From positions 88,590-152,589 of IMG/VR virus record IMGVR_UViG_3300037258_000282: a stretch of DNA of 64,000 nt; one strand, 5' to 3'. This DNA comes from a virus. Positions 4,709 through 52,310 of this stretch are shown piece after piece; the first letter of the stretch is position 1, and every line of letters begins with the position of its first letter. The translations under genes were made by a program, and so were the position numbers. The notes below the pieces were generated by a model. It had not been told where the DNA came from. It worked only from the letters and a program-made list of their open reading frames with translations, and made no database searches.

Positions 4709-6359
4709 AGAATTTCTCCTGCTTATAGTACATCCAGTTGTCACCGTCGTATGGTCTGACGTTTGGATCCGGCTCATCCCTGCCGTCATACACGAATAGA
4801 AATTGGGCTAGATCCTGCTCGATCTCTTCGTCTGTCTTATCTCTAAGCTTCTGCATGGTATGGATGTTGGCATAGTCCTTGAAGTATCCTTGATCTGACA
4901 GCCATGAGAAGAGCACGAGACCCATGACCAAGTCGTCGTGCTTTCCCGGCTCGGCCTCATATGAATCTTTCTTCTTTGAGAACGTCGAGAGCTCCTCGAT
5001 AGTGTTAAAATCATTTATGATGAGCTGATTCTGCTCCACGAGAAGCTTTAATATCGAGCAACCTATGTTCTTAACTACTTTAGTAGTCCTGATACCCTTA
5101 TCAATCTGCTTTCCACCGAAGCCAGAGGTGATCCTCTTTCCAGACCTTCCGGCATTCTCAGTAAAGAGAACGTTGTCATAGTTGAAGTCATAGTGCAGGG
5201 AGGTAGAGACCTGCTCACCGATATCGTTGATCTCTACTAGAACTGCCGAATTGTTGTAGGCGATCGCGACTCTATGCACTATGGCGGCGTAGTCCAATGG
5301 AGTGATGTAGTTGTCTCTATACACCGCGACCTGCTCATATGGCATCTCGGTGACGTCGATAAGTTGAAACGCAGAGTAGTCTAGACCTTTTCCACGTGAG
5401 ACGTCGCAGACCATCATGTAGATCCTATTAGGTCGCGGAGAGACATACACGTGAAGTCCCTCGGAAGCGGTCTCTGGACTCTTCCATATGAGCTCCTTGA
5501 GCTTCCATCCCGCGATAAGCGTTCCAGATGAACCTTGAAATTCGCACTCCATCTCTTGGGCGAATTTCTGAAGATCTCCATTCATTCCATCGAGAGTGTC
5601 TTTCTTCCACTTCTCGTCCCTTCCCGGAACGTCCTTCCAGTGGACTCTCAGAGGCTTGAACTGATTTTTTCTCTCCTTGGCTCCTACCCAAAACTTATGA
5701 AAGTGATTGAGTCCAAATGGCGTGGAGACCAAGATGATCTTTGAGTCGACGCCGGACGAGATAGTCGGATAGACTGAGGTGTAGAACTCATCCCACTTCT
5801 CGATGTGAGCCGCCTCGTCGACGAAGAGAAGTGATATGGAGTATCCTCGGATCGCGTCTTTTGTAGTAGTAGAAGCTATAACGCGAGAGTTGTTGTCTAG
5901 CTCAAACGATCCCTCGTTCCACTTCAGAACTCCATGCTGAAGCCACTTGGGAAGATGCTCGTATGCGAGCTGAATGCGTCCTAGTATCTCGCGAGCGACC
6001 TCTCCCTTGTTGGCTAGCAGCGCGACGGTCTTCTCTGACTGAAACAGAACGTACCACAGTATGAAGCCGCACGTAGTGGTTGACTTGCCACTTTGACGCG
6101 CGGAAGTTATAATATTGAACCTCTCATTTTTGAAGTTCAACAACATCTGCTTCTGATAGTCATATAGCTTAAAGTGCACGAGTCCCTTATCTAGAGATAC
6201 GATCTTCATGTAGGTCTCTACGAAGTAGATGGGATCCTCGGAGCACTTGACGTACTCTTGAATAAGTTCCGGCGTCCACTCTATCTGCTGATTAGCTCTC
6301 TTTAAGAGTGGATTTCCGTTGTAGGCTTTTACTAGGTCGAAATTTCGATCATCCTGCAT
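4707..6359 (-). CDS. 17: Terminase large subunit (gp17-like)
   Basis: This is the ATPase-nuclease motor that packages DNA into the prohead through the portal. Counting from the chosen start, the Walker A motif SARQSGKST is at residues 86-94, Walker B LLFVDEA at 177-183 and the coupling motif VSTPFG at 211-216. The RNase H-like nuclease domain begins near CDVSRGKGLDYSAF (Asp 319 and 327), with a further HDDLV acidic site near the C-terminus. The product is 550 residues (T4 gp17: 610). ATG at 6359 is preferred over 6368 because AAGAGG is then 9 bases upstream instead of abutting the codon. It overlaps the small subunit gene by 11 bases, which implies translational coupling. Confidence 0.97.
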   Translation of the reverse strand: MQDDRNFDLVKAYNGNPLLKRANQQIEWTPELIQEYVKCSEDPIYFVETYMKIVSLDKGLVHFKLYDYQKQMLLNFKNERFNIITSARQSGKSTTTCGFILWYVLFQSEKTVALLANKGEVAREILGRIQLAYEHLPKWLQHGVLKWNEGSFELDNNSRVIASTTTKDAIRGYSISLLFVDEAAHIEKWDEFYTSVYPTISSGVDSKIILVSTPFGLNHFHKFWVGAKERKNQFKPLRVHWKDVPGRDEKWKKDTLDGMNGDLQKFAQEMECEFQGSSGTLIAGWKLKELIWKSPETASEGLHVYVSPRPNRIYMMVCDVSRGKGLDYSAFQLIDVTEMPYEQVAVYRDNYITPLDYAAIVHRVAIAYNNSAVLVEINDIGEQVSTSLHYDFNYDNVLFTENAGRSGKRITSGFGGKQIDKGIRTTKVVKNIGCSILKLLVEQNQLIINDFNTIEELSTFSKKKDSYEAEPGKHDDLVMGLVLFSWLSDQGYFKDYANIHTMQKLRDKTDEEIEQDLAQFLFVYDGRDEPDPNVRPYDGDNWMYYKQEKF

Positions 6360-10277: not shown

Positions 10278-12225
10278 GGTTGCTGGCGATCACTTTGCCA
10301 GTTCCAGTACCAAGATCGTTCACAGTATTGGCCCTCAGCCCATAACCCCTGTTTCCAACGATGACGTAGTTGTTGGACCCTCCAGAGGTTACGGTGATGC
10401 CAAATGAGTTGTTCCCGGTTACGGTAGGATACGCCGCTCCTAAGACGTTGTTGATAATAGAGAAGTTGTTTATGGCCGCCGCCACGTTGATGCACGGGTA
10501 CGTATTGGCCGATCGAGTGCCATTTTGAACTATGATGTTGTCCGATATCAGATAGTCGATTCCACCCTGAAGATTTATAGCTGACATGGAGTTGTTCTGA
10601 ATCAGGTTGCCGACGATGCGGTTTGGTCCTATGACTGCAGTAGACTTCATGATTATTCCACTAGAAAAGATGGCTCCCTGTATGGTACAATCAGAGATCA
10701 TGACGTCAGTGCACGTGGCAAAAGACAGCGGTGTAGAGATAGGATTTGAGAACGTAGACTTGTTGATGTATATACCAGAGGCCGCGGCCGCGTTGGTGGT
10801 GGCCGTATCTACCACGCTTATTGAAGATAATAGATTATTTACTATGGTAGAATCTATTATGGTATTGTACGTATAGTTGTCGATTAGGATTCCAATGGCT
10901 GACGTCGACATGATAGGTCGATACGACATGGTATTGGAAGTCTGCGTGTTGGTCTGCCAGCCTAATGCAGTCGGTGCGGTGGGAAGTCCAACTCCTGAAG
11001 TTCCAGCGACCGTGACCTGAAAGTACCAGCTAGATGAGCTAAACACGTCTCCCAAACTGTATGCCGTAGAGTTCGCGTATGCGGCCTTATAGTTGAGCGT
11101 AGTTGGAGTATTTGCCGCATATGAATATGGATTGTCTATGAGACAGTTTCGTATCTTACTATTATACACTCCTACCGTCGAGTTTCCCTGAAGCTCGATG
11201 CCGTAAAATCCAGTAGCATTTAATACCGTTATATTATCCACGATAGTGTTGTTACACATTCTGAGAAATACCCCAGAAAAACCTCCATTAATATATAGAT
11301 CTCTAAGCACGCAGTTATTCGCGCCGAATAGTTGGATCTCATAGCCGGAGGTCTTGAATACGCTTGGAACGAAGGCCATTTCAGTTAGCATGCACTGCGA
11401 TCCATCTATCTGAAACGTTACTCCCGTAGTGGCCGCCGTCTGAATTACTGTCGTATTAAGTCCAGAACCAAGCAGACATATGTTGTTAGAAGTTATGGCG
11501 GACGGGTTGTTTATTGGATATACTCCCGGAGGAAAGAATATGATCGCTCCGTTAGTGAGTGAGTTTACGGCCGTCACTATATTGTTGAAGTTAGTCGTGT
11601 TGATGGCGGCATTGTTCTGCGGGGTGACGTTATAGTCAGTGATGACGTTTATCCACGGAATGATATCGACACCATTGATCGAGTACGTCGTAGCGTTTAT
11701 CGACGTATTTACCGTCGAGTTTCCTATCGAAGAAGATGCTGGAGTTAGATTAAAAGTAGACGTAGAGTTCGCTACTGTTATAGCGACAGACGTTAAGACC
11801 ACATTTGCGGTCGTATTGCTGATAGAGATTGAGTTTATTCCGATGACTGCTTTAGTCGTCGAATTGCTGATGCTGAGAGTCATCGGAGTCGTGGTTACTG
11901 TAGACGTAGAGTTAGCTATACTCTCTGACGACGAGTTTCTAGAAGAGTTAGCGATCGTATTTCCGATGAATAGGACAGAAGTGTTGACGGTGACGTTGGC
12001 TCCAACTGTCATACCGCCGTTCACGTTGAGATTGACTAAGTTTGATCCGATCTCAAAGTACGCCGATCCATTGGACGAAAACATCTTGAAGTCTATTAGG
12101 TTGAGCGCTAGTTCGCCGGTAGATATATACGAAGAGTTTGCGTTATACGACCCGGCGGTAGTATTGGGAGTTTTTCCCGTAGTTGAGGTACGCTTTATAT
12201 AAAGCGGCAGTGGATCTGTTGCCAA
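10273..12225 (-). CDS. Tail spike/fibre with parallel beta-helix
   Basis: This 650-residue protein has an N-terminal fibre anchor (PLPLYIKRTSTTGKTPN, then STGELALNLIDFKMFS and a FEIGSNL turn). Repeats of the NSTxxVxIxxTT type follow to about residue 190. From about residue 200, IPWINVITDYNVTPQNNAAI opens a right-handed beta-helix of the pectate-lyase type, with successive strands such as NTIVDNITVLNATGFYGIEL and GIYINKSTFSNPI. By family knowledge such spikes bind or degrade surface polysaccharide. The active site cannot be assigned by eye. It shares the anchor style with the protein at 12505. Confidence 0.82.
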   Translation of the reverse strand: MATDPLPLYIKRTSTTGKTPNTTAGSYNANSSYISTGELALNLIDFKMFSSNGSAYFEIGSNLVNLNVNGGMTVGANVTVNTSVLFIGNTIANSSRNSSSESIANSTSTVTTTPMTLSISNSTTKAVIGINSISISNTTANVVLTSVAITVANSTSTFNLTPASSSIGNSTVNTSINATTYSINGVDIIPWINVITDYNVTPQNNAAINTTNFNNIVTAVNSLTNGAIIFFPPGVYPINNPSAITSNNICLLGSGLNTTVIQTAATTGVTFQIDGSQCMLTEMAFVPSVFKTSGYEIQLFGANNCVLRDLYINGGFSGVFLRMCNNTIVDNITVLNATGFYGIELQGNSTVGVYNSKIRNCLIDNPYSYAANTPTTLNYKAAYANSTAYSLGDVFSSSSWYFQVTVAGTSGVGLPTAPTALGWQTNTQTSNTMSYRPIMSTSAIGILIDNYTYNTIIDSTIVNNLLSSISVVDTATTNAAAASGIYINKSTFSNPISTPLSFATCTDVMISDCTIQGAIFSSGIIMKSTAVIGPNRIVGNLIQNNSMSAINLQGGIDYLISDNIIVQNGTRSANTYPCINVAAAINNFSIINNVLGAAYPTVTGNNSFGITVTSGGSNNYVIVGNRGYGLRANTVNDLGTGTGKVIASNL

Positions 12226-43504: not shown

Positions 43505-44455
43505 TCATATCTTATTCGCGAGACTCTTGAAGTACTCTAGAGTCTCCCCGTCGTCTTCACCAGAGTCGTCAGTCTGCAGCGACGGAGACTCCACCTTCTC
43601 GTCGTCCCTAGCCTCTTCGGTCTTTCGAGACTTCGATGAAGAATGCTCAATCGCCTCACGAGCGGCACTCTTGGTCTCGTTCTCACCCTTCCATGGGTCG
43701 TCAGTTCCATCCTCGAGAACTGTCGCGAGCTTAAGCTTGAGCTCTTGATAGGTCTTGAAGTGCTTGCGATTCAATAGGTCCTGAAGTGAGTAGCAGGTCC
43801 TCCAGATGGTCTCGATCTCTTCGTCAGTCTTGGCGATCTGAGAGGGCTTCATGAACTCAGACTTATCGTAATTCCTATAACCCTCGTGATTACGAACTTT
43901 GAGCTTGAAGTTAGCTCCCTCCCAGAGGTCGAAGGCGTTGAACGCCTCTTCATCCGCGAACTGAGGCTGAGTCGTCTCGGACAACTTGTCGAAGATCTTC
44001 TTTCCGTACTTAAACAGAAAGACCTTCCCGTTGTTGTCAGGCTTAGCCGGATCGTCGACTACCAGGATGTTTGAGTAGAAGTGAAGTCGCCTCTTCTGCT
44101 TCCTGGCGATCTCCTTGTTGGACTCTAAGTTAGTGTTCCAGAGCTTAGAGTTAAGCTCTGAGAGAGGATCCTTCTCTCCCTCAAAAGTGGTCAGCGACTT
44201 TTCAATGTACCACTTGCCGGTCGGTCCCTGGAATCCATGGTCGTATATCCTGACGAATGGAACGTTCTCTCCGGGAGGGGCCGCGAGGAAGCGAATTATG
44301 GCATAGCCATTTCCTGCCTTATCGACGGTCGGGATCCAGAATCTCTCGTCTGGCCCGTTGTCGTACTTTTGGTTCATCTTGGTCATCTCGGCAGAGATAG
44401 TCTCAATGGACCTCTTACCTGAATTTGCCTTGAGCTTTGCAAAGTCTATTGTCAT
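43505..44455 (-). CDS. 32: Single-stranded DNA-binding protein (gp32-like)
   Basis: This 316-residue protein (T4: 301) coats ssDNA in replication and recombination. It has the basic N-terminus (FAKLKANSGKRSIETISA), core RFWIPTVDKAGNGYAIIRFL, YDHGFQGPTGKWYIEKSLTT and SNILVVDDPAKPDNNGKVFL, with an acidic C-terminal tail (DDSGEDDGETLEYF) that recruits partners. The Cys cluster that binds zinc in T4 gp32 is absent: the segment after WNTNLESNKEIARKQKRR has no Cys. It lies next to genes 59 and 33, as in T4. Confidence 0.95.
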   Translation of the reverse strand: MTIDFAKLKANSGKRSIETISAEMTKMNQKYDNGPDERFWIPTVDKAGNGYAIIRFLAAPPGENVPFVRIYDHGFQGPTGKWYIEKSLTTFEGEKDPLSELNSKLWNTNLESNKEIARKQKRRLHFYSNILVVDDPAKPDNNGKVFLFKYGKKIFDKLSETTQPQFADEEAFNAFDLWEGANFKLKVRNHEGYRNYDKSEFMKPSQIAKTDEEIETIWRTCYSLQDLLNRKHFKTYQELKLKLATVLEDGTDDPWKGENETKSAAREAIEHSSSKSRKTEEARDDEKVESPSLQTDDSGEDDGETLEYFKSLANKI

Positions 44456-44543: not shown

Positions 44544-45122
44544 TCACATAACTTCAAAAGAGTCAAGGATAATCTGTCTAAACTTGTGAGCGTCGTACTC
44601 GATAAATGGAGTATACTTTTTAATCATAAAGCTTAAGTCACTCCACACGACGTCGTCAACTAGAACTTTATTCCAGTTCTTCCACGCGCCGGTAAGTTGG
44701 AGAAGTATCGCTACTGTGTCTATCGACACCTTCGAAGCTATATAGTCGATCAGTAGGATCGGATACTGCTGGCCTCCCTGAAACGTCAGATTTTTATCGA
44801 ATATTGGATGCAGTATCTTAAGCTCTTGAGAGAAGAAGTAGGTTAAAGCCTCGCGCCTCTTCATCCACTTCTTATAGATTATCTCTCCGTGCTCATTGAG
44901 CGCGTCTCTAATATAGAGATTTGGGTTCATCACTAGGTTTGATACTAGAAAGTTCTTAGGATCCTGGTGCCTTGAGAGCTTCTCAAACCAATATCTGTCT
45001 TTTCGAGCTAAGAAACTGTTGACTGAGATCCTCGTCTTACCGCCATACTTGAAGTAGTCGTAGTCCGAAGTGAAGTGCTGCTTAAGTGACTGGTAGAGCG
45101 TGAATGCGTTATACGGTGTCAT
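44544..45122 (-). CDS. 59: DNA helicase loader (gp59-like)
   Basis: This 192-residue protein (T4 gp59: 217) loads the replicative helicase on gp32-coated DNA. Matching features are MTPYNAFTLYQSLKQHF at the start, KDRYWFEKLSRHQDPKNFLV, the SNLVMNPNLYIRDAL block and a basic, helical C-terminus (DDVVWSDLSFMIKKYTPFIE). The ATG at 45122 is used because upstream candidates lie inside the peptidase gene in another frame and read as low-complexity. It overlaps that gene by 14 bases. Confidence 0.88.
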   Translation of the reverse strand: MTPYNAFTLYQSLKQHFTSDYDYFKYGGKTRISVNSFLARKDRYWFEKLSRHQDPKNFLVSNLVMNPNLYIRDALNEHGEIIYKKWMKRREALTYFFSQELKILHPIFDKNLTFQGGQQYPILLIDYIASKVSIDTVAILLQLTGAWKNWNKVLVDDVVWSDLSFMIKKYTPFIEYDAHKFRQIILDSFEVM

Positions 45123-45555
45123 CCTGCATAGCTCTCTCAAAGCGGGCATAGAGGCCGACCGCCTTACCATAGGCCTCGATCTCCCAGGGGAGGTCCCAAT
45201 AGTCCATACTATCAATATTGTAGCTGCGCCCATCAAATGACGACCTTGAGCTAGATAGGTCGCGCAGGCGTCCCGAGACGTGCTGAGCTGCGTGGGTCAT
45301 TTCATGAGCTATTAACTCTAGAAGAATCCTCTTCTTCTTGATATTCTTAGAGAGGCATATCGTATACTCATACTTTGAGTCTCTACCAATGTCGGCCTCT
45401 TCCTCGGCTCTGTCGCCGAAGTGAATAAACTCAAAGTATATGTGAAGTTTCTTCCTCACGCTCTTGGTGAAGAGGATGTCTGCGTAAAAATTAATCGCAG
45501 AGCGTAGATCTGACTCGTTCCACCTCTTTGGAACGTTCTTAAAGTACAGATGCAT
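45109..45555 (-). CDS. SprT-like zinc metallopeptidase
   Basis: This 148-residue protein has the HExxH zinc motif in LLELIAHEMTHAAQHVSG (about residues 80-97) and a downstream DLPWEIEAYGKAVGLYARF helix that could supply the third ligand. The fold recalls SprT/WLM-type minimal peptidases found in many T4-like phages. The substrate is unknown. It is inserted between genes 59 and 33 and overlaps 59. Confidence 0.75.
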   Translation of the reverse strand: MHLYFKNVPKRWNESDLRSAINFYADILFTKSVRKKLHIYFEFIHFGDRAEEEADIGRDSKYEYTICLSKNIKKKRILLELIAHEMTHAAQHVSGRLRDLSSSRSSFDGRSYNIDSMDYWDLPWEIEAYGKAVGLYARFERAMQDDTV

Positions 45556-45558
45556 AGA

Positions 45559-45777
45559 TTATACCGGAAGTCTTGCGGTCTTCTTTAATATGTTCAGATC
45601 TTCAGCCTCGACCTGAATCCGCGCCTTCAAGCCCGAGTCTCTCTTGACTAACTGAGCGAGTAGCTCTATGTCTATCTCATTTTTTTCAGAAAATAGAACT
45701 ACGGCATCTATGACACCGATATTCTTGGAGGCGGCGAGCTTGGTTATCTCGTCTATCACAGAACTCTTATCGAACAA
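45559..45777 (-). CDS. 33: Late transcription coactivator (gp33-like)
   Basis: This 72-residue protein contains NIGVIDAVVLFSEKNEIDIE, LLAQLVKRDSGLKARIQVEA and the C-terminal EAEDLNILKKTARLPV, the gp33 pattern. In T4, gp33 bridges RNA polymerase and the sliding clamp to activate TATAAATA promoters, many of which occur in this window. It is shorter than T4 gp33 (112 residues) but lies in the T4 order 33-59-32. Confidence 0.85.
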   Translation of the reverse strand: MFDKSSVIDEITKLAASKNIGVIDAVVLFSEKNEIDIELLAQLVKRDSGLKARIQVEAEDLNILKKTARLPV

Positions 45778-45795: not shown

Positions 45796-45870
45796 TGGTA
45801 GGCGTACAGTGAGTCGAACACTGATAAAACCTGTTATGAGCAGGTGGCATTACCATTATGCTATACGCCT
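45796..45870 (-). tRNA. tRNA with CAT anticodon (Met, or Ile if modified)
   Basis: This is a 75-base cloverleaf on the minus strand. The acceptor AGGCGTA/TACGCCT is followed by A and an encoded CCA. The D arm is GCA...TGC, the anticodon arm ACCTG-CTCATAA-CAGGT, and the T arm CAGTG-TTCGACT-CACTG. The initiator features (C1-A72 mismatch, three G-C pairs) are absent. Elongator Met and lysidine-modified Ile cannot be told apart with confidence. It has its own host-type promoter. Confidence 0.9.
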
Positions 45871-46406: not shown

Positions 46407-46742
46407 TCAGATCTTCTTGATCTCGCCTACCACGTCCGAAGCCGCGGTCTCGATTCCAGTCAGGATCTTGGACCCAACGCTCTCGACGACCGGAGCAGCT
46501 GGCGATGCCGCCGCTGCCGCTACCACCGCAGTCGCGGTGGAAGTTACCGTCGATACTGCCGCATTCGCCGCGGCTAGAGTCGTTGGATTCATGACGGCCT
46601 TCTCAGCAGACTTGACGTCGTTTGACACGGCAAGACCGATTCCACCGAGCTCAGTGTTGACGCTCGGCTGCCACCAATTCATCTTGTAGCCGACGAACGC
46701 GATCACGCATACTAATACTAACAACCAGAAAATAACTGCCAT
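46407..46742 (-). CDS. Small single-pass membrane protein, unknown
   Basis: This 111-residue protein has an N-terminal membrane helix (VIFWLLVLVCVIAFVGY, residues 3-19). An Ala/Val/Thr-rich, probably helical domain follows (AAANAAVSTVTSTATAVVAA) and ends EIKKI. AGGAGGAGAG precedes the ATG. Short membrane-anchored proteins of this kind can be spanin-like or envelope-modifying, but nothing specific is recognisable. It follows the tmRNA terminator. Confidence 0.6.
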   Translation of the reverse strand: MAVIFWLLVLVCVIAFVGYKMNWWQPSVNTELGGIGLAVSNDVKSAEKAVMNPTTLAAANAAVSTVTSTATAVVAAAAASPAAPVVESVGSKILTGIETAASDVVGEIKKI

Positions 46743-46760
46743 AGATCTCTCCTCCTAGAC

Positions 46761-46799
46761 AAAAAAGACGCGGATTTTGTTGTTTCCGAGAAAATCCGC
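46761..46799 (-). terminator. Terminator after tmRNA gene
   Basis: On the minus strand the stem GCGGATTTT/AAAATCCGC (9 bp, 12-base loop) is followed by GTCTTTTTT. It closes the tmRNA unit. Confidence 0.85.
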
Positions 46800-47012
46800 A
46801 AACTCAGCGAGGGTTACGCCGCTAGGCGGGCCTCACAGGCGAAGTTGTCGTTCGCATTTAACTACGATAGGTCTCTCAACGGGAGCCATCAACGCCAGTC
46901 GATCCTATTTCGCCCCCAGCAGAAGAGAACCCTTAGATTCTCTCGTGGTGGAGGCGCCGGGTACTGCCCCCGGGTCCTTGCGCCTATCTCGTCGTATCAA
47001 CGATTCCCATCA
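46800..47012 (-). ncRNA. ssrA: Permuted two-piece tmRNA (ssrA)
   Basis: tmRNA rescues stalled ribosomes and tags the nascent chain. On the minus strand the acceptor half comes first: T arm CCGGG-GGCAGTA-CCCGG, then CGCCTCC and ACCA ending at 46946. A 28-base linker with its own small hairpin (46945-46918) follows. The coding half then starts GGGGGCGAAATAGGATCGACT at 46917. GGGGGCG pairs fully with CGCCTCC, including the G3-U70 alanine identity pair. The resume codon is GCG (46855-46853), giving tag ANDNFACEARLAA and TAA (46816-46814). This order is the alphaproteobacterial permuted form. A late promoter and a terminator frame it; mature ends are approximate. Confidence 0.93.
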
Positions 47013-47018
47013 TATCGA

Positions 47019-47026
47019 TATTTATA
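47019..47026 (-). promoter_or_regulatory. Late promoter for tmRNA
   Basis: Exact TATAAATA on the minus strand. Transcription would begin near 47012, about 66 bases before the mature CCA end of the acceptor half. Confidence 0.7.
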
Positions 47027-47065
47027 TATCTAATCTGGGACCGCGACAATAGAAAAAAATAGAAG

Positions 47066-47524
47066 TCAGTACGTATCTGGCTCAGACTGCTTCTTCTGAG
47101 CCGGCGCTTCGGCACCGCCGTGCTCCCTTAGGGACTTCATCACCTGCTCGATATAGCCAAATAGCTTGGCCGTAGTTACCGGGCTTACAGACATATCGAC
47201 CAGCGACGTGTCTGCTCTGATGCATATCTTCTTGATCTTGTCGTATTCAGTCTCTGCAGTAGAGCTTAGTAGTCCCGGATCGTACGACTCGTACTCCACG
47301 CTAAGGAGCTCATGGCTTACTGGGTTTATCCATACCTCTACGATCTTGGTCTTGTCAGAGAGCTCGCCTCCGCGAAACAACTTCGCGAAGCCACCGGCAG
47401 CAATATCTTGTGCGAACTTGCTGGCGTCAGTATTACATAGCTGCTGCTTTGAATCAAGTCCGTAGGCCGGAGTCATCAGCATCAGCGCCGCGAGAGTCGC
47501 GATTCCGATCTTTTTAGTATTCAT
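47066..47524 (-). CDS. Secreted/periplasmic protein, unknown
   Basis: This 152-residue protein has an N-terminal signal peptide (MNTKKIGIATLAALMLMTPA with YG before the likely cleavage site). The mature part contains KIVEVWINPVSHELLSVEYE and two Cys residues that could pair. ATG 47524 is preferred over the in-frame GTG at 47533 because GAGG then has an 8-base spacing. Function is not recognised; export to the periplasm is inferred. Confidence 0.7.
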   Translation of the reverse strand: MNTKKIGIATLAALMLMTPAYGLDSKQQLCNTDASKFAQDIAAGGFAKLFRGGELSDKTKIVEVWINPVSHELLSVEYESYDPGLLSSTAETEYDKIKKICIRADTSLVDMSVSPVTTAKLFGYIEQVMKSLREHGGAEAPAQKKQSEPDTY

Positions 47525-47543
47525 GTCTATCACCTCTTCTGTG

Positions 47544-48677
47544 TTAGAGCGCCCTGAGGATGACGATACTCTCAGTCATCCTCGACTGTAGATTAACTGG
47601 ACTACCTTCTACTTGGCCCATTAACTTCCCCAGGGCGATCTTACCAGCCGATAGAACTTCACTAACTATCTCGGCAGTCTTTCGTCCAGTCTTTTTAGTG
47701 ATAGAACTACTCGCGTCGGACCCAACTATCGTAGTTCCACTTACAGAAAGAGTCGAGCCATTCTTGGCCCTATGCACCGTAAGTAAGTTATATCTCGTAT
47801 TTATACACCAGACTTCAGATGCTCCCACTATCTTCTTAGGGTCTATGGATACGACCTTAAGGCTTGGACAGTCTCGCATGAACTTTAGGTTCTTTACGGT
47901 CTTGTCCGAGCTGACAGCCCTGTGAGTCCTTATTATGATCGGTTTTTTGACGACGTTCTTGGCGTTTGAGTCGTATCTCTCAGCATCTGATATCAGCTCA
48001 GCGAAGAAGTTTATACGCTCGTTCAACTGATCTGAAGACATGTTCCTGTACGCGTATCTCAAGTCGACATCGTCCGTATCTAAAGCTTCGACGAGCTCTT
48101 CGAACCACTCTCCATAGAAAGTCACGATCGCCTGAATATAAGGTCTCGGCACAGACTTCGCCGCTAGGTATTCATATAGTGAGAAATTCTCATTTAAGTC
48201 GATCTCACGCTCTATATCCCCCAAGACATCCGAGATCCTGTTTGTCTGAGTCTTATCTCTCGCCTTCGTCTGACGATCTTCAGTCGCTTGCGGTTTTATG
48301 GCGCGCGATTGAGCGACGTCATAGATCTTCTTGATGATGAACGCCTCGGGCTCTCCTGGAAGTTCGCATCCCCTGGACAAAAGTCTGGCTATCCAGCATG
48401 CCGTGAGCGGAAGCCACGTGTCAGGCATCCTCTTCAAGATCTCGAATTCTTCTGACAGTTCAAACTCACTCAGATAGACTTTTAGATACTCTCTAGCGTC
48501 GGAGGCATCGCACATGGTATTGTACCACGTCAGTGTCGATCCATACTGGCTGTCTGTAAGAGGATCTGAGAACTCTGGCTCTGGGCCCATGAACTTTAGG
48601 TTGGCGTAATAACTCTCTCCGCGAGTCATTCTCTCTACTTTACGCGCGGGCCTCTTAGTGATAGTCGACCTGCGCAT
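47544..48677 (-). CDS. Conserved hypothetical protein
   Basis: This 377-residue soluble, charged protein begins with a basic stretch (RRSTITKRPARKVERMTRGE) and has helical segments such as ENFSLYEYLAAKSVPRPYIQ and IVTFYGEWFEELVEALDTDD. The C-terminal part looks like a beta domain (LKVVSIDPKKIVGASEVWCI, SGTTIVGSDASSSIT). It is not recognised. A host-type promoter directly upstream suggests early expression, unlike the late genes around it. Confidence 0.7.
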   Translation of the reverse strand: MRRSTITKRPARKVERMTRGESYYANLKFMGPEPEFSDPLTDSQYGSTLTWYNTMCDASDAREYLKVYLSEFELSEEFEILKRMPDTWLPLTACWIARLLSRGCELPGEPEAFIIKKIYDVAQSRAIKPQATEDRQTKARDKTQTNRISDVLGDIEREIDLNENFSLYEYLAAKSVPRPYIQAIVTFYGEWFEELVEALDTDDVDLRYAYRNMSSDQLNERINFFAELISDAERYDSNAKNVVKKPIIIRTHRAVSSDKTVKNLKFMRDCPSLKVVSIDPKKIVGASEVWCINTRYNLLTVHRAKNGSTLSVSGTTIVGSDASSSITKKTGRKTAEIVSEVLSAGKIALGKLMGQVEGSPVNLQSRMTESIVILRAL

Positions 48678-48749: not shown

Positions 48750-49388
48750 TTAAGAGAAGATCGTGGTGGTCACCATCACTCTCCCATAGACCTCCGCGCT
48801 CCCATAGACCCGAGCGTTCTCATAGATCCGAGCGCTTCCATAGACCTCCGCGTTCCCAAAGACCTGAGCGTCTCCATAGACCTCCGCGTTCCCAAAGACA
48901 TAAGCGTTCCCATGGACATAAGCGCTTCCATAGACCAGAGCGTCCCCATAGACCCGAGCGTCCCCATAGACCCGAGCGTCCCCATAGACCCATCCGGAGT
49001 CCGATAGGTTCTCCTCGCGCTCGATCCATCCCCCGAGGTCTTCGGCCTTGACTCCATGGATTGGAATATCCCGAGTAGCCCGAATCCTTCTGAGAGTGAC
49101 TCCATAGTGGAGTAGAGTCTCTCCGGTGAACTCAAATGTTTTATTGGAGGTCTTCGTACTTGAGTTCATCTCTGAGTCGAGATTGTCGAGTGCGTGCCTA
49201 ACGTCCGCCATCTCTCTCCGCACCCAGTCGACGTTCATCTCTCGCTGATCTGGTGGCAATTCTGGATTGAATGAGGACCATCCACACCGAAGCGTCTTAC
49301 CTAGCGCGGCGCACAGCTCTCCGCACTCCTCGACTGTTTTTCCTACTGCAAAGTCGAGCCCTGGACGCATGTATCGCTTATCTGTCAT
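48750..49388 (-). CDS. MazG-like domain fused to hexapeptide-repeat protein
   Basis: In this 212-residue protein residues 1-75 resemble the MazG-type all-alpha nucleotide pyrophosphohydrolase fold: TVEECGELCAALGKTLRCGW and later REMADVRHALDNLDSEM supply the EExxE and ExxD metal motifs. Residues 82-135 are the N-terminal domain shared by the 56-62 kb family (FEFTGETLLHYGVTLRRIRA, DLGGWIEREENLSDSGWV). About 12 hexapeptides of the V-Y-G-D-A-R type follow, predicted to form a left-handed beta-helix. The fusion is continuous in one frame. Its role is unknown; house-cleaning of nucleotides combined with a scaffold is only a guess. Confidence 0.78.
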   Translation of the reverse strand: MTDKRYMRPGLDFAVGKTVEECGELCAALGKTLRCGWSSFNPELPPDQREMNVDWVRREMADVRHALDNLDSEMNSSTKTSNKTFEFTGETLLHYGVTLRRIRATRDIPIHGVKAEDLGGWIEREENLSDSGWVYGDARVYGDARVYGDALVYGSAYVHGNAYVFGNAEVYGDAQVFGNAEVYGSARIYENARVYGSAEVYGRVMVTTTIFS

Positions 49389-49879: not shown

Positions 49880-50800
49880 CTATAGTCTTCCTATGGCGCG
49901 CTCTAGAAAGTTAATAATATCTATCGTCTCGTCACCCAGAGGCGTACCTCCGCGTGTTTCCTGCCAGTGCTCCCGCGCCTCGGCGAAGGTAAAATACCTG
50001 CATCCGGCCGTGAGGCGCGGCGTACCATCGGCGCATGGAAACGCGAAGAACGTATAGCCGTCGCTGCGCATGACGAAAGGAAGATTCATCGTTATCCGCG
50101 CGCCACCGAAGACCCGAGCGCTCCCGTAGACCTTAGCGCTTCCATAGACCTCCGCGTACCCATAGACCCGAGCGTCCTCAGAGACTTGAGCGTCCCCGTA
50201 GACCCAAGCGTCCCCATAGACCATGGCGTCATCATAGACCCAGGAGTTTCCATAGACCCGAGCGTCCCCATAGACCCGAGCGTTCCCATGGATATAAGCG
50301 CGCCCGGAGACCCAAGCGCTCCCGGAGACCTCCGCGTACCCATAGACCCAGGAGTTTCCATAGACCCGAGCGTTCCTATGGACCTCCGCGCCACCGCAGA
50401 CCTGAGCGTCCCCGTGGACTATAGCGCTTCCATAGACCTTCGAGTTCCCATAGACCCGAGCGCCTCCGTAGACCCGGGTGCGCCCATAGACCTGAGCGTC
50501 CCCATAGACCCAAGCGTCCCCATAGACACGAGCGCTCCCGGAGACCAAAGCGCCCCCGTAGACCCGAGCGTTCCCATGGATATAAGCGCTACCATAGACC
50601 TGAGCGTCCCCATAGACCCAAGCGCCGTCCGTGTGACTTAGGTTACGTTCGGTCGCGATGTAACCACCAAGGCTACCTACTTGCACTTCTCCAAATTCCC
50701 GCGCCGCGACAATGCGATAAAGTGTCGTACCATCATTTGAGGTAACTGTATCATCTGGTAGCAAGTTGTACTTGGTAACATAAATTTGATTGTCGCTCAT
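49880..50800 (-). CDS. Hexapeptide-repeat (left-handed beta-helix) protein with C-terminal domain
   Basis: This 306-residue protein is the most complete member of the family. The N-terminal domain of about 55 residues (DDTVTSNDGTTLYRIVAARE, SLGGYIATERNLSHTDGAWV) is more diverged than in the 56-62 kb copies. About 29 hexapeptides (VYGDAQ, VSGSAR and variants) follow to residue 235. A conserved C-terminal domain (SDGYTFFAFPCADGTPRLTA, GCRYFTFAEAREHW, TRGGTPLGDETIDII) closes it; this domain occurs with such repeats in other phages and bacteria. Function is unknown. AAGGAGATATTG precedes the ATG. Confidence 0.82.
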   Translation of the reverse strand: MSDNQIYVTKYNLLPDDTVTSNDGTTLYRIVAAREFGEVQVGSLGGYIATERNLSHTDGAWVYGDAQVYGSAYIHGNARVYGGALVSGSARVYGDAWVYGDAQVYGRTRVYGGARVYGNSKVYGSAIVHGDAQVCGGAEVHRNARVYGNSWVYGYAEVSGSAWVSGRAYIHGNARVYGDARVYGNSWVYDDAMVYGDAWVYGDAQVSEDARVYGYAEVYGSAKVYGSARVFGGARITMNLPFVMRSDGYTFFAFPCADGTPRLTAGCRYFTFAEAREHWQETRGGTPLGDETIDIINFLERAIGRL

Positions 50801-50849: not shown

Positions 50850-52310
50850 TCATCCGCGCTTCTTCCTCCATGGAGCGTCTCTCTGCCAGTCACCTGCCAT
50901 GATATTTCCAATTGGATCGACATAATCGACTATATCACAGAGATCGAAGTCTTTTATCTGACTCAGAATCTCTTTTGCGGACTTGTACGCCGATGGAAGT
51001 TCAGATTTATCTGGAATTCCAGAGAAGTATCTTACGTCGATTCCCTTAGCCTCATTCCTGATGATCTCCTCTACCGGACGATCAGCGCTCATCCTTAGGT
51101 ACTTTCCGCGTGAGAAATTCCTTCCAGCCCCATGCGGAGCGAATCCGAGGGATGATGACATACCAGACTCCGGACGCGTCTTCGCCATCAGAATCGGCTC
51201 TGCCATGTTGAGCGGTATCAGAGTCAGATTGTTGGTGTCGTCAGAGAAGAAGTCATATGCTGGAGTCGCGCCCTTGGCGTGATAGAACAATCCGTCGGAT
51301 TTCTGAAACACGAAGTTGTGCTCGTTCCAAAATCGATCTTTGACCTTCAGACCTAGGGCGTCTGCGCAGGCATCGTGTATGGCGAAGTGACTCTTCTTGG
51401 TCCAGCGCCTGATCAGCTGAAGCGCCGCCCAATACTCCCTCCCGTCGTCTGACTCTGTGGGTATCCACGCCTGATGCTCTGGAACATCCGGAGCGATCTT
51501 CCTCCTATGACTCTCCGCGCACGCCATGCCTCGGTCGAAGAGCATGGCGCCAGGTTTTCTAGAGCCGTGATGAGTCACGAGAGCGATCTGTCCGGTCGAC
51601 CTGACTCGCCCGACGAAGAAGAAGTGATTTCCGTCGCCCTGAGTTCCGAACGTCGCGGAGGCCGCATCTCCCATCATCGACAAGAACTTGTTTCTCTCGA
51701 AGTCGTCCATCAGATCTTGAGATGGACATAGGGCTCGGTAGGTTTTCTTTCTCCCGCCGAAGTGCGAGAGCTTCATCCCCGCGTCGAGCAGATCTGTTCC
51801 AGTATTAGTGGAGGAAGCGAAGCCCGCTTGTCCGAATATAGATATGGCCATAGAGCAGCATATGTCGGATGAGTGCATGGCCGGATGAATGGCACTCTTA
51901 CAGGCCGCGACGCCGCCGACCGGAATCACCCCGAGTCTCAGATCGTAGGGGCACGCATCCGGCATTATGGTCGCCGCGATTACGGTGGGAACTCTAACGA
52001 GCTCGTCCATTGACTTTGCTACCATATCGTAGTTCGCCAGATCATCGTCTGTATTCAGGCGGATGTTAGAGCTCCACCGTGGTCCCGATCCCGACTTCCT
52101 GAGACTCATCTGAACTGGCTCGTAGTGGTCGGCGAACGCGCGGATCTCCTCGTCAGTCTCGAACGAGAGACAGGCTGAGTCTGCGATGACCGCCTTCCAC
52201 CACGGCGCGCCGCGGTATCCCAATTCCTTAAGCTTCGAACCAGTGATTTCCACAGCGATGATCCTCCGATCTTGCCTCCCCACGATATACCTTCCATGAG
52301 CGACTGTCAA
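50850..52310 (-). CDS. RtcB-family RNA ligase, divergent
   Basis: This 486-residue protein (E. coli RtcB: 408) belongs to the family that joins 3'-phosphate RNA ends with GTP and Mn. Recognisable motifs: IMPDACPYDLRLGVIPVGGV (canonical MPDxH has Cys here), GTQGDGNHFFFVGRV, VTHHGSRKPGAMLFDRG, NEHNFVF, HAKGATPA with the presumed guanylylated His at 344, and GFAPHGAGRNFSR. A TTG start is used; no ATG lies nearby. It could repair tRNAs cut by host nucleases. It lies near three tRNA genes, but the link is inference. Confidence 0.85.
   Translation of the reverse strand: MTVAHGRYIVGRQDRRIIAVEITGSKLKELGYRGAPWWKAVIADSACLSFETDEEIRAFADHYEPVQMSLRKSGSGPRWSSNIRLNTDDDLANYDMVAKSMDELVRVPTVIAATIMPDACPYDLRLGVIPVGGVAACKSAIHPAMHSSDICCSMAISIFGQAGFASSTNTGTDLLDAGMKLSHFGGRKKTYRALCPSQDLMDDFERNKFLSMMGDAASATFGTQGDGNHFFFVGRVRSTGQIALVTHHGSRKPGAMLFDRGMACAESHRRKIAPDVPEHQAWIPTESDDGREYWAALQLIRRWTKKSHFAIHDACADALGLKVKDRFWNEHNFVFQKSDGLFYHAKGATPAYDFFSDDTNNLTLIPLNMAEPILMAKTRPESGMSSSLGFAPHGAGRNFSRGKYLRMSADRPVEEIIRNEAKGIDVRYFSGIPDKSELPSAYKSAKEILSQIKDFDLCDIVDYVDPIGNIMAGDWQRDAPWRKKRG

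Follow-up and report, generated by a model that had tools for sequence, protein, structure and literature searches.

Does a T4-type phage keep a ribosome-rescue RNA of its own, and would that RNA work? The question is raised by a transfer-messenger RNA (tmRNA) gene of the circularly permuted, two-piece kind on the minus strand of IMG/VR virus record IMGVR_UViG_3300037258_000282. The gene lies in a stretch of 64,000 nucleotides (nt; positions 88,590 to 152,589), called the window here, which forms the final 64 kb of the 152,589-bp record; coordinates are window positions, and numbering within the tmRNA runs downward. Bacteria use tmRNA to free stuck ribosomes, and a tag ending in LAA is the usual ClpXP signal. 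An earlier note, made from the sequence alone, had described a phage-borne permuted tmRNA of the alphaproteobacterial type, and ARAGORN, the Rfam models RF04321 and RF01849 and the phage gene context confirm at the sequence level that the gene is a genuine one. The RNA is probably functional, and we assign a probability of roughly 0.68 to the reading that it is a genuine T4-superfamily phage tmRNA giving supplementary rescue with host SmpB, alanyl-tRNA synthetase (AlaRS), EF-Tu and ClpXP.

The tmRNA fills a 323-bp gap (46743-47065, minus strand) between the stop of open reading frame 47066-47533 and the start of open reading frame 46407-46742. ARAGORN, one of the checks proposed in the earlier note, calls a complete circularly permuted tmRNA gene in this gap with the tag ANDNFACEARLAA. 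Another, the alpha_tmRNA covariance model RF01849, matches with 82.5 bits (E 7.9e-21; cut-off 50), and RF04321 (tmRNA_permuted) matches with 84.2 bits (E 1.1e-14; curated cut-off 47). These model scores, together with covariation in relatives, exclude a chance origin. The predicted precursor spans 46767..47012 on the minus strand, with its start placed by a promoter-like motif and its end past a 3' hairpin. The interval 46770-47026 previously given for the gene fits closely because the RNA includes this hairpin (46800-46769).

The acceptor piece (46946..47012, from the RF04321 and RF01849 alignments) is encoded ahead of the coding piece (46769..46917), with a linker between them, as had been claimed. 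Sequence reading and the Rfam alignments place the T arm CCGGG-GGCAGTA-CCCGG at 46973-46957, the acceptor 3' strand at 46956-46950, and the discriminator A plus CCA at 46949-46946; CGCCTCCACCA comes after the T arm and ends at 46946. The linker, read at 46945-46918 with the predicted length of 28 nt, folds as a hairpin and is expected to be removed. The coding piece opens with GGGGGCGAAATAGGATCGAC at 46917 and comprises the acceptor 5' strand GGGGGCG (46917-46911), 62 nt before the tag, the tag frame, and the 3' hairpin. The two pieces rebuild the anticipated 7-bp acceptor stem, GGGGGCG/CGCCUCC, which contains the G3-U70 alanine identity pair. The tag frame called by ARAGORN (46814..46855) runs from the resume codon GCG (46855-46853) to the TAA stop (46816-46814) that the note had read, and its tag keeps both the ANDN start and the LAA end.

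The 3' hairpin UGCGGAUUUU/AAAAUCCGCG (46769..46800, minus strand) is a homologue of the conserved hairpin that other permuted tmRNAs have in this position, with a loop of the AACAGAA type; it is also terminator-like because a T run follows. Its loop CUCGG is able to pair with CUGAG at 46807-46803, and a swap test of this pairing was weak (score 10.0 vs 9.6), so that a 3' pseudoknot is only suggested. The precursor folds more stably than its shuffles (z -2.44), with the acceptor stem closed over the linker hairpin.

The coding piece is shortened. Counting from the 5' G up to the resume codon gives 62 nt for the window RNA, where the count is 83-89 nt across 100 distinct bacterial genes and 76-91 nt for most other phage RNAs. 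After a second pattern scan, a short class with 61-68 nt before the tag numbers 31 distinct members, the window RNA included, most of which carry a GAGACC mark ahead of the tag. A search for the short form in 385 alphaproteobacterial genomes gave 13 pattern matches, none with tmRNA features on reading, and a backward control gave about as many. The shortened coding piece of these RNAs, missing from the surveyed alphaproteobacterial genomes, is a new observation here. The window form may descend from the short class or may have been shortened independently: a first RNA tree put the window RNA among phage RNAs, a second tree and clade tests were undecided between grouping with phage and with host RNAs, and neither tree is relied on. 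The 5' domain could hold a smaller pseudoknot or a hairpin; pseudoknot scans had no power in any class. It is a tentative idea, and a doubtful one, that these RNAs form a phage-only structural class with a cut-down 5' domain without host-type PK1, a fixed T4-type locus and a phage promoter, acting as a self-contained rescue module. The short form may reveal how little upstream of the tag a natural tmRNA needs.

Selection has left its marks on the relatives of this RNA. Across the 31 short relatives the acceptor stem is paired in 215 of 217 cells, and G3-U70 is invariant in all 31 while pairs 4-6 vary and swap partners. Among 22 RNAs of this class, 99.2% of the cells in the acceptor and T stems are paired; double-sided changes number 41, where shuffles give 10.3, and none of the 500 shuffles or of the slid controls reaches the covariation score of these stems. 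The 3' hairpin is formed by 51 distinct complementary stems among 92 phage RNAs. Phage tags come in 69 different forms, 68 of which end in AA and 60 in LAA. Covariation, G3-U70, and the tag ends are features expected of a tag-encoding RNA that is alanylated and works, and its activity may be inferred from them.

The gene also has a conserved place. It lies 1.0 kb upstream of the late-transcription coactivator gp33 (45559..45777; PF16805), which is followed by the helicase loader gp59 (44544..45236; PF08993) and the single-stranded DNA-binding protein gp32 (43505..44455; PF08804), syntenic markers all encoded on the minus strand with the tmRNA. A tRNA-Met gene (45796..45870, minus strand) stands between the tmRNA and gp33, an interval filled by tRNAs in several relatives, and upstream of the tmRNA is a conserved hypothetical protein (47544..48677, minus strand; phrog_11903) that is syntenic in relatives. 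The tmRNA is on the same strand and at most 5 kb upstream of gp33, in the gp33-gp59-gp32 locus, in 18 of 20 tmRNA-positive records; in the remaining two the distance to gp33 is about 10 and 33 kb. Some relatives, among them viral record L281, have nearly the window's gene order: the 47544-type protein, tmRNA, tRNAs, gp33, a 45109-type protein, gp59, and gp32. In phages Melnitz and Mosig the tmRNA is likewise upstream of gp33, and in HTVC008M a tmRNA match (145161-145370) precedes the annotated late-promoter factor. This placement is a new observation here, and sharing of the locus among relatives makes a stray host-gene copy less likely.

A further new observation is a promoter-like motif at a fixed distance ahead of the acceptor piece. 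In the window it is TATAAATA (47019..47026, minus strand), which reads as a T4-late-type motif or a sigma70-like -10 element, with a weak -35-like TTGTCG (47044..47049, minus strand; 4/6 to TTGACA) across a 17-nt spacer. The phage genome contains 17 copies of the motif, where dinucleotide content predicts 3.45. Measured from the CCA end, it recurs at -73 to -82 ahead of 55 of 100 distinct phage tmRNAs, and none of 130 alphaproteobacterial genes has it there; of the 31 short-class RNAs, 28 carry it at -78 to -81, and the sequences flanking it show close to random identity. Since a TTGACA-like hexamer (at least 5/6) lies 16-19 nt upstream in 34 of the 55 phage cases, against 5 of 275 control positions, the motif resembles a sigma70-type promoter in many phages. 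It is compatible with early (sigma70-like) and late (T4-late-type) expression alike. Together the locus, the promoter motif, and the strong covariation indicate that selection maintains this RNA in T4-type phages, so that whether phages bring ribosome rescue of their own becomes a testable question.

The earlier note held the permuted form to be rare in phages, which is too strong: it is common among T4-superfamily phages that infect alphaproteobacteria and among marine phages, according to both PMC9004378 and the present surveys. As of 2021, 53 two-piece tmRNAs were counted in phage genomes, of which 50 are marine or aquatic, and among 47 contigs of the Melnitz group 17 carried one (PMC9004378); a database from 2025 lists 79 tmRNA sequences from phages, all forms included (PMC11915505). 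A DNA pattern found at least 119 stretches in IMG/VR, most of which ARAGORN calls as permuted tmRNA. Of 15 phage records selected for testing, several of them picked for matching the tmRNA query, 12 exceeded the RF04321 cut-off, as did 20 of 31 viral records with a relative of the window gp32, a set that includes the window's own record and many fragments. The permuted tmRNAs of Rhodobacter phages RcRudolph and RcSimone-Hastad and of Mesorhizobium phage Cp1R7A-A1 (L127, L128, L129) are un-annotated in their records. Stenotrophomonas phage DLP6 (L142), a phage of a gammaproteobacterium and so a host mismatch resembling Melnitz, has a permuted tmRNA (136.8 bits) with tag ANDDSFAPMAIAA beside tRNA genes. 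An unusually long tag of 29 amino acids, ANDNALSNVTFVDFSAPVTAVNEDFALAA, occurs in the phage tmRNAs of L027, L032, L043, L049, L096, L097, L114, and L115.

The record is, by its gene content, that of a T4-superfamily phage, with tail sheath, T4-type terminase, gp32, gp59, and gp33. Its terminase is closest to those of Sinorhizobium phages phiN3 and phiM12 (55% identity), and DNA-level comparison with named phages gave short conserved stretches only and no close relative. Tag style and terminase relatives make an alphaproteobacterial host likely, perhaps a rhizobium. The exact tag ANDNFACEARLAA was in no bacterial genome of the collection under the codon pattern searched. A relaxed pattern matched mostly rhizobia with ANDNYAEARLAA (117 of 118 host tags called, in a set selected by tag pattern) and one Rhodospirillaceae metagenome-assembled genome with ANDNFAGEARLAA. 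The phage has 26 tRNA genes, mostly clustered away from the tmRNA; neither SmpB nor SspB was detected in it. An RtcB RNA ligase gene (50850-52310) lies 3.8 kb from the tmRNA, and one at 392-1624 of the Cp1R7A-A1 record is similarly near a permuted tmRNA; RNA repair is possibly linked to the tmRNA or to tRNAs. Two YdcK-type beta-solenoid repeat proteins are encoded at 48750-49388 and 49880-50800, the first with DNA about 70-80% identical to repeats in Streptococcus phage genes.

From these features we infer a pathway of transcription, processing, charging, tagging, and benefit to the phage. A single precursor would be transcribed from the promoter-like motif just ahead of the acceptor piece; host tRNA-processing enzymes would cut out the linker, leaving the pieces held by acceptor-stem pairing. 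Host AlaRS would charge the RNA via G3-U70. With EF-Tu and SmpB of the host, the latter needed because none was detected in the phage, the RNA would enter ribosomes stalled on truncated mRNAs during infection. Alanine and ANDNFACEARLAA would be added to the stalled product, whose LAA end would direct it to host ClpXP. The phage would gain extra ribosome-rescue capacity as mRNA is destroyed.

Several points weigh against supplementary rescue. The window RNA reaches 82.5 bits with RF01849 where 52 bacterial genomes give 143-313 bits, and because of this low score and the roughly 20 nt missing before the tag its activity could be reduced. Hosts already possess tmRNA. A permuted tmRNA is not essential in the wider group, since the RF04321 survey of phage records found none in phiM12, phiN3, or Pseudoalteromonas phage XG4. 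Transcription, processing, and phenotype are predicted from sequence, and a partial survey of the literature found no demonstrated function for a complete phage tmRNA.

Alternative rescue factors in related T4-type phages of alphaproteobacteria bear on the same reading. Ochrobactrum phage OC (L518) encodes an ArfA-like protein at 5507-5704, between the 47544-type protein and gp33, and the Caulobacter phage Cr30 record encodes one at 11142-11219, elsewhere in the genome; both matches are marginally over the Pfam cut-off. Neither phage has a permuted tmRNA, as expected if rescue is the selected function. Strict exclusivity is broken by one tmRNA-positive relative with an ArfA match over the cut-off (G401:4853-4924), and the alternation of tmRNA and ArfA is a trend in a small set and no rule. 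No ArfB/RF-1-type factor was present in 42 related records. The "aminoacyl-tRNA hydrolase" of phiM12 (L525; 11097-11519), considered as ArfB, was rejected as a PTH2-type peptidyl-tRNA hydrolase, in a phage without permuted tmRNA. The ArfA-like factors point to ribosome rescue as a recurring need of the lineage.

Four other explanations can be weighed against supplementary rescue; two of them, replacement and retargeting, were put forward in the earlier note beside rescue at the lysis stage. The RNA might replace or back up a host tmRNA damaged in infection, for instance by RelE/MazF-type RNases, with phage RtcB as a repair companion. The nearby RtcB gene, its counterpart in Cp1R7A-A1, and the 26 phage tRNAs fit this account, but the RtcB association is seen in two phages only and cleavage of host tmRNA is a supposition, which leaves it unlikely.

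The low model score and short 5' domain would also suit a diverged RNA that draws SmpB or AlaRS away from host tmRNA and so blocks host trans-translation, and a passage in PMC11915505 counts in favour of such a decoy. The window RNA has nevertheless kept its tag frame, resume region, stop codon, LAA end, and 3' hairpin; because a decoy would need no tag, this account is quite improbable. The phage tag might instead direct degradation, or spare tagged proteins, in a way unlike the host tag. The 69 different phage tags and the proposal by the Melnitz authors that host proteins are recycled (PMC9004378) lend this some appeal, but the common ANDN start and LAA end are kept in the window tag and no phage SspB was found. 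A tag of the ordinary degradation type is mild evidence against reprogramming, and there seems little chance of such retargeting. Least probable is a functionless host tmRNA recently acquired, for instance via integration at ssrA: tmRNA genes are common integration sites, the window tag resembles rhizobial ANDNYAEARLAA, and the RNA tree leaves grouping with host genes unrejected (p-AU 0.455), but synteny within the replication and late-regulation block of T4-type phages already disfavours it, as do the short form missing from the 385 alphaproteobacterial genomes, the phage-specific promoter motif, the compensatory changes among relatives, and the exact tag missing from the bacterial collection under the codon pattern searched.

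The window RNA can also be compared with known systems. The bacterial two-piece tmRNA (RF01849, Caulobacter type) shares its piece order, acceptor stem, T arm, D-loop motif, tag style, and 3' hairpin with an AACA(G/A)-type loop; it differs in its higher scores (143-313 bits), in its 83-89 nt before the tag, and in having no TATAAATA upstream (130 genes). Mycobacteriophage DS6A, as cited in a passage of PMC11915505, has a tag-less tmRNA that inhibits the endogenous tmRNA. Both are phage-encoded and tmRNA-like, but the tag frame is complete in the window RNA and, as described there, missing from the DS6A RNA. RcRudolph, RcSimone-Hastad, Cp1R7A-A1, and Rhizobium phage RHph_I1_18 are alphaproteobacterial phages with permuted tmRNAs over the RF04321 cut-off, like the window's type, in gene neighbourhoods that differ from the window's. 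Also close are Melnitz, a Methylophilales phage (PMC9004378), and the Pelagibacter phages Mosig and HTVC008M, which like the window phage are T4-type phages with a permuted two-piece gene, on the same strand upstream of gp33, and an alphaproteobacterial tag style. The window phage differs from these three in a terminase closest to Sinorhizobium phages and in having no glutamine riboswitch over the Rfam threshold, and it has 62 nt before the tag where counts from the sequences give 82 for Melnitz and 79 for Mosig. The window RNA is a further case of an already known kind of phage gene, and its possible novelty lies in how short its coding piece is and in the arrangement of conserved locus and promoter.
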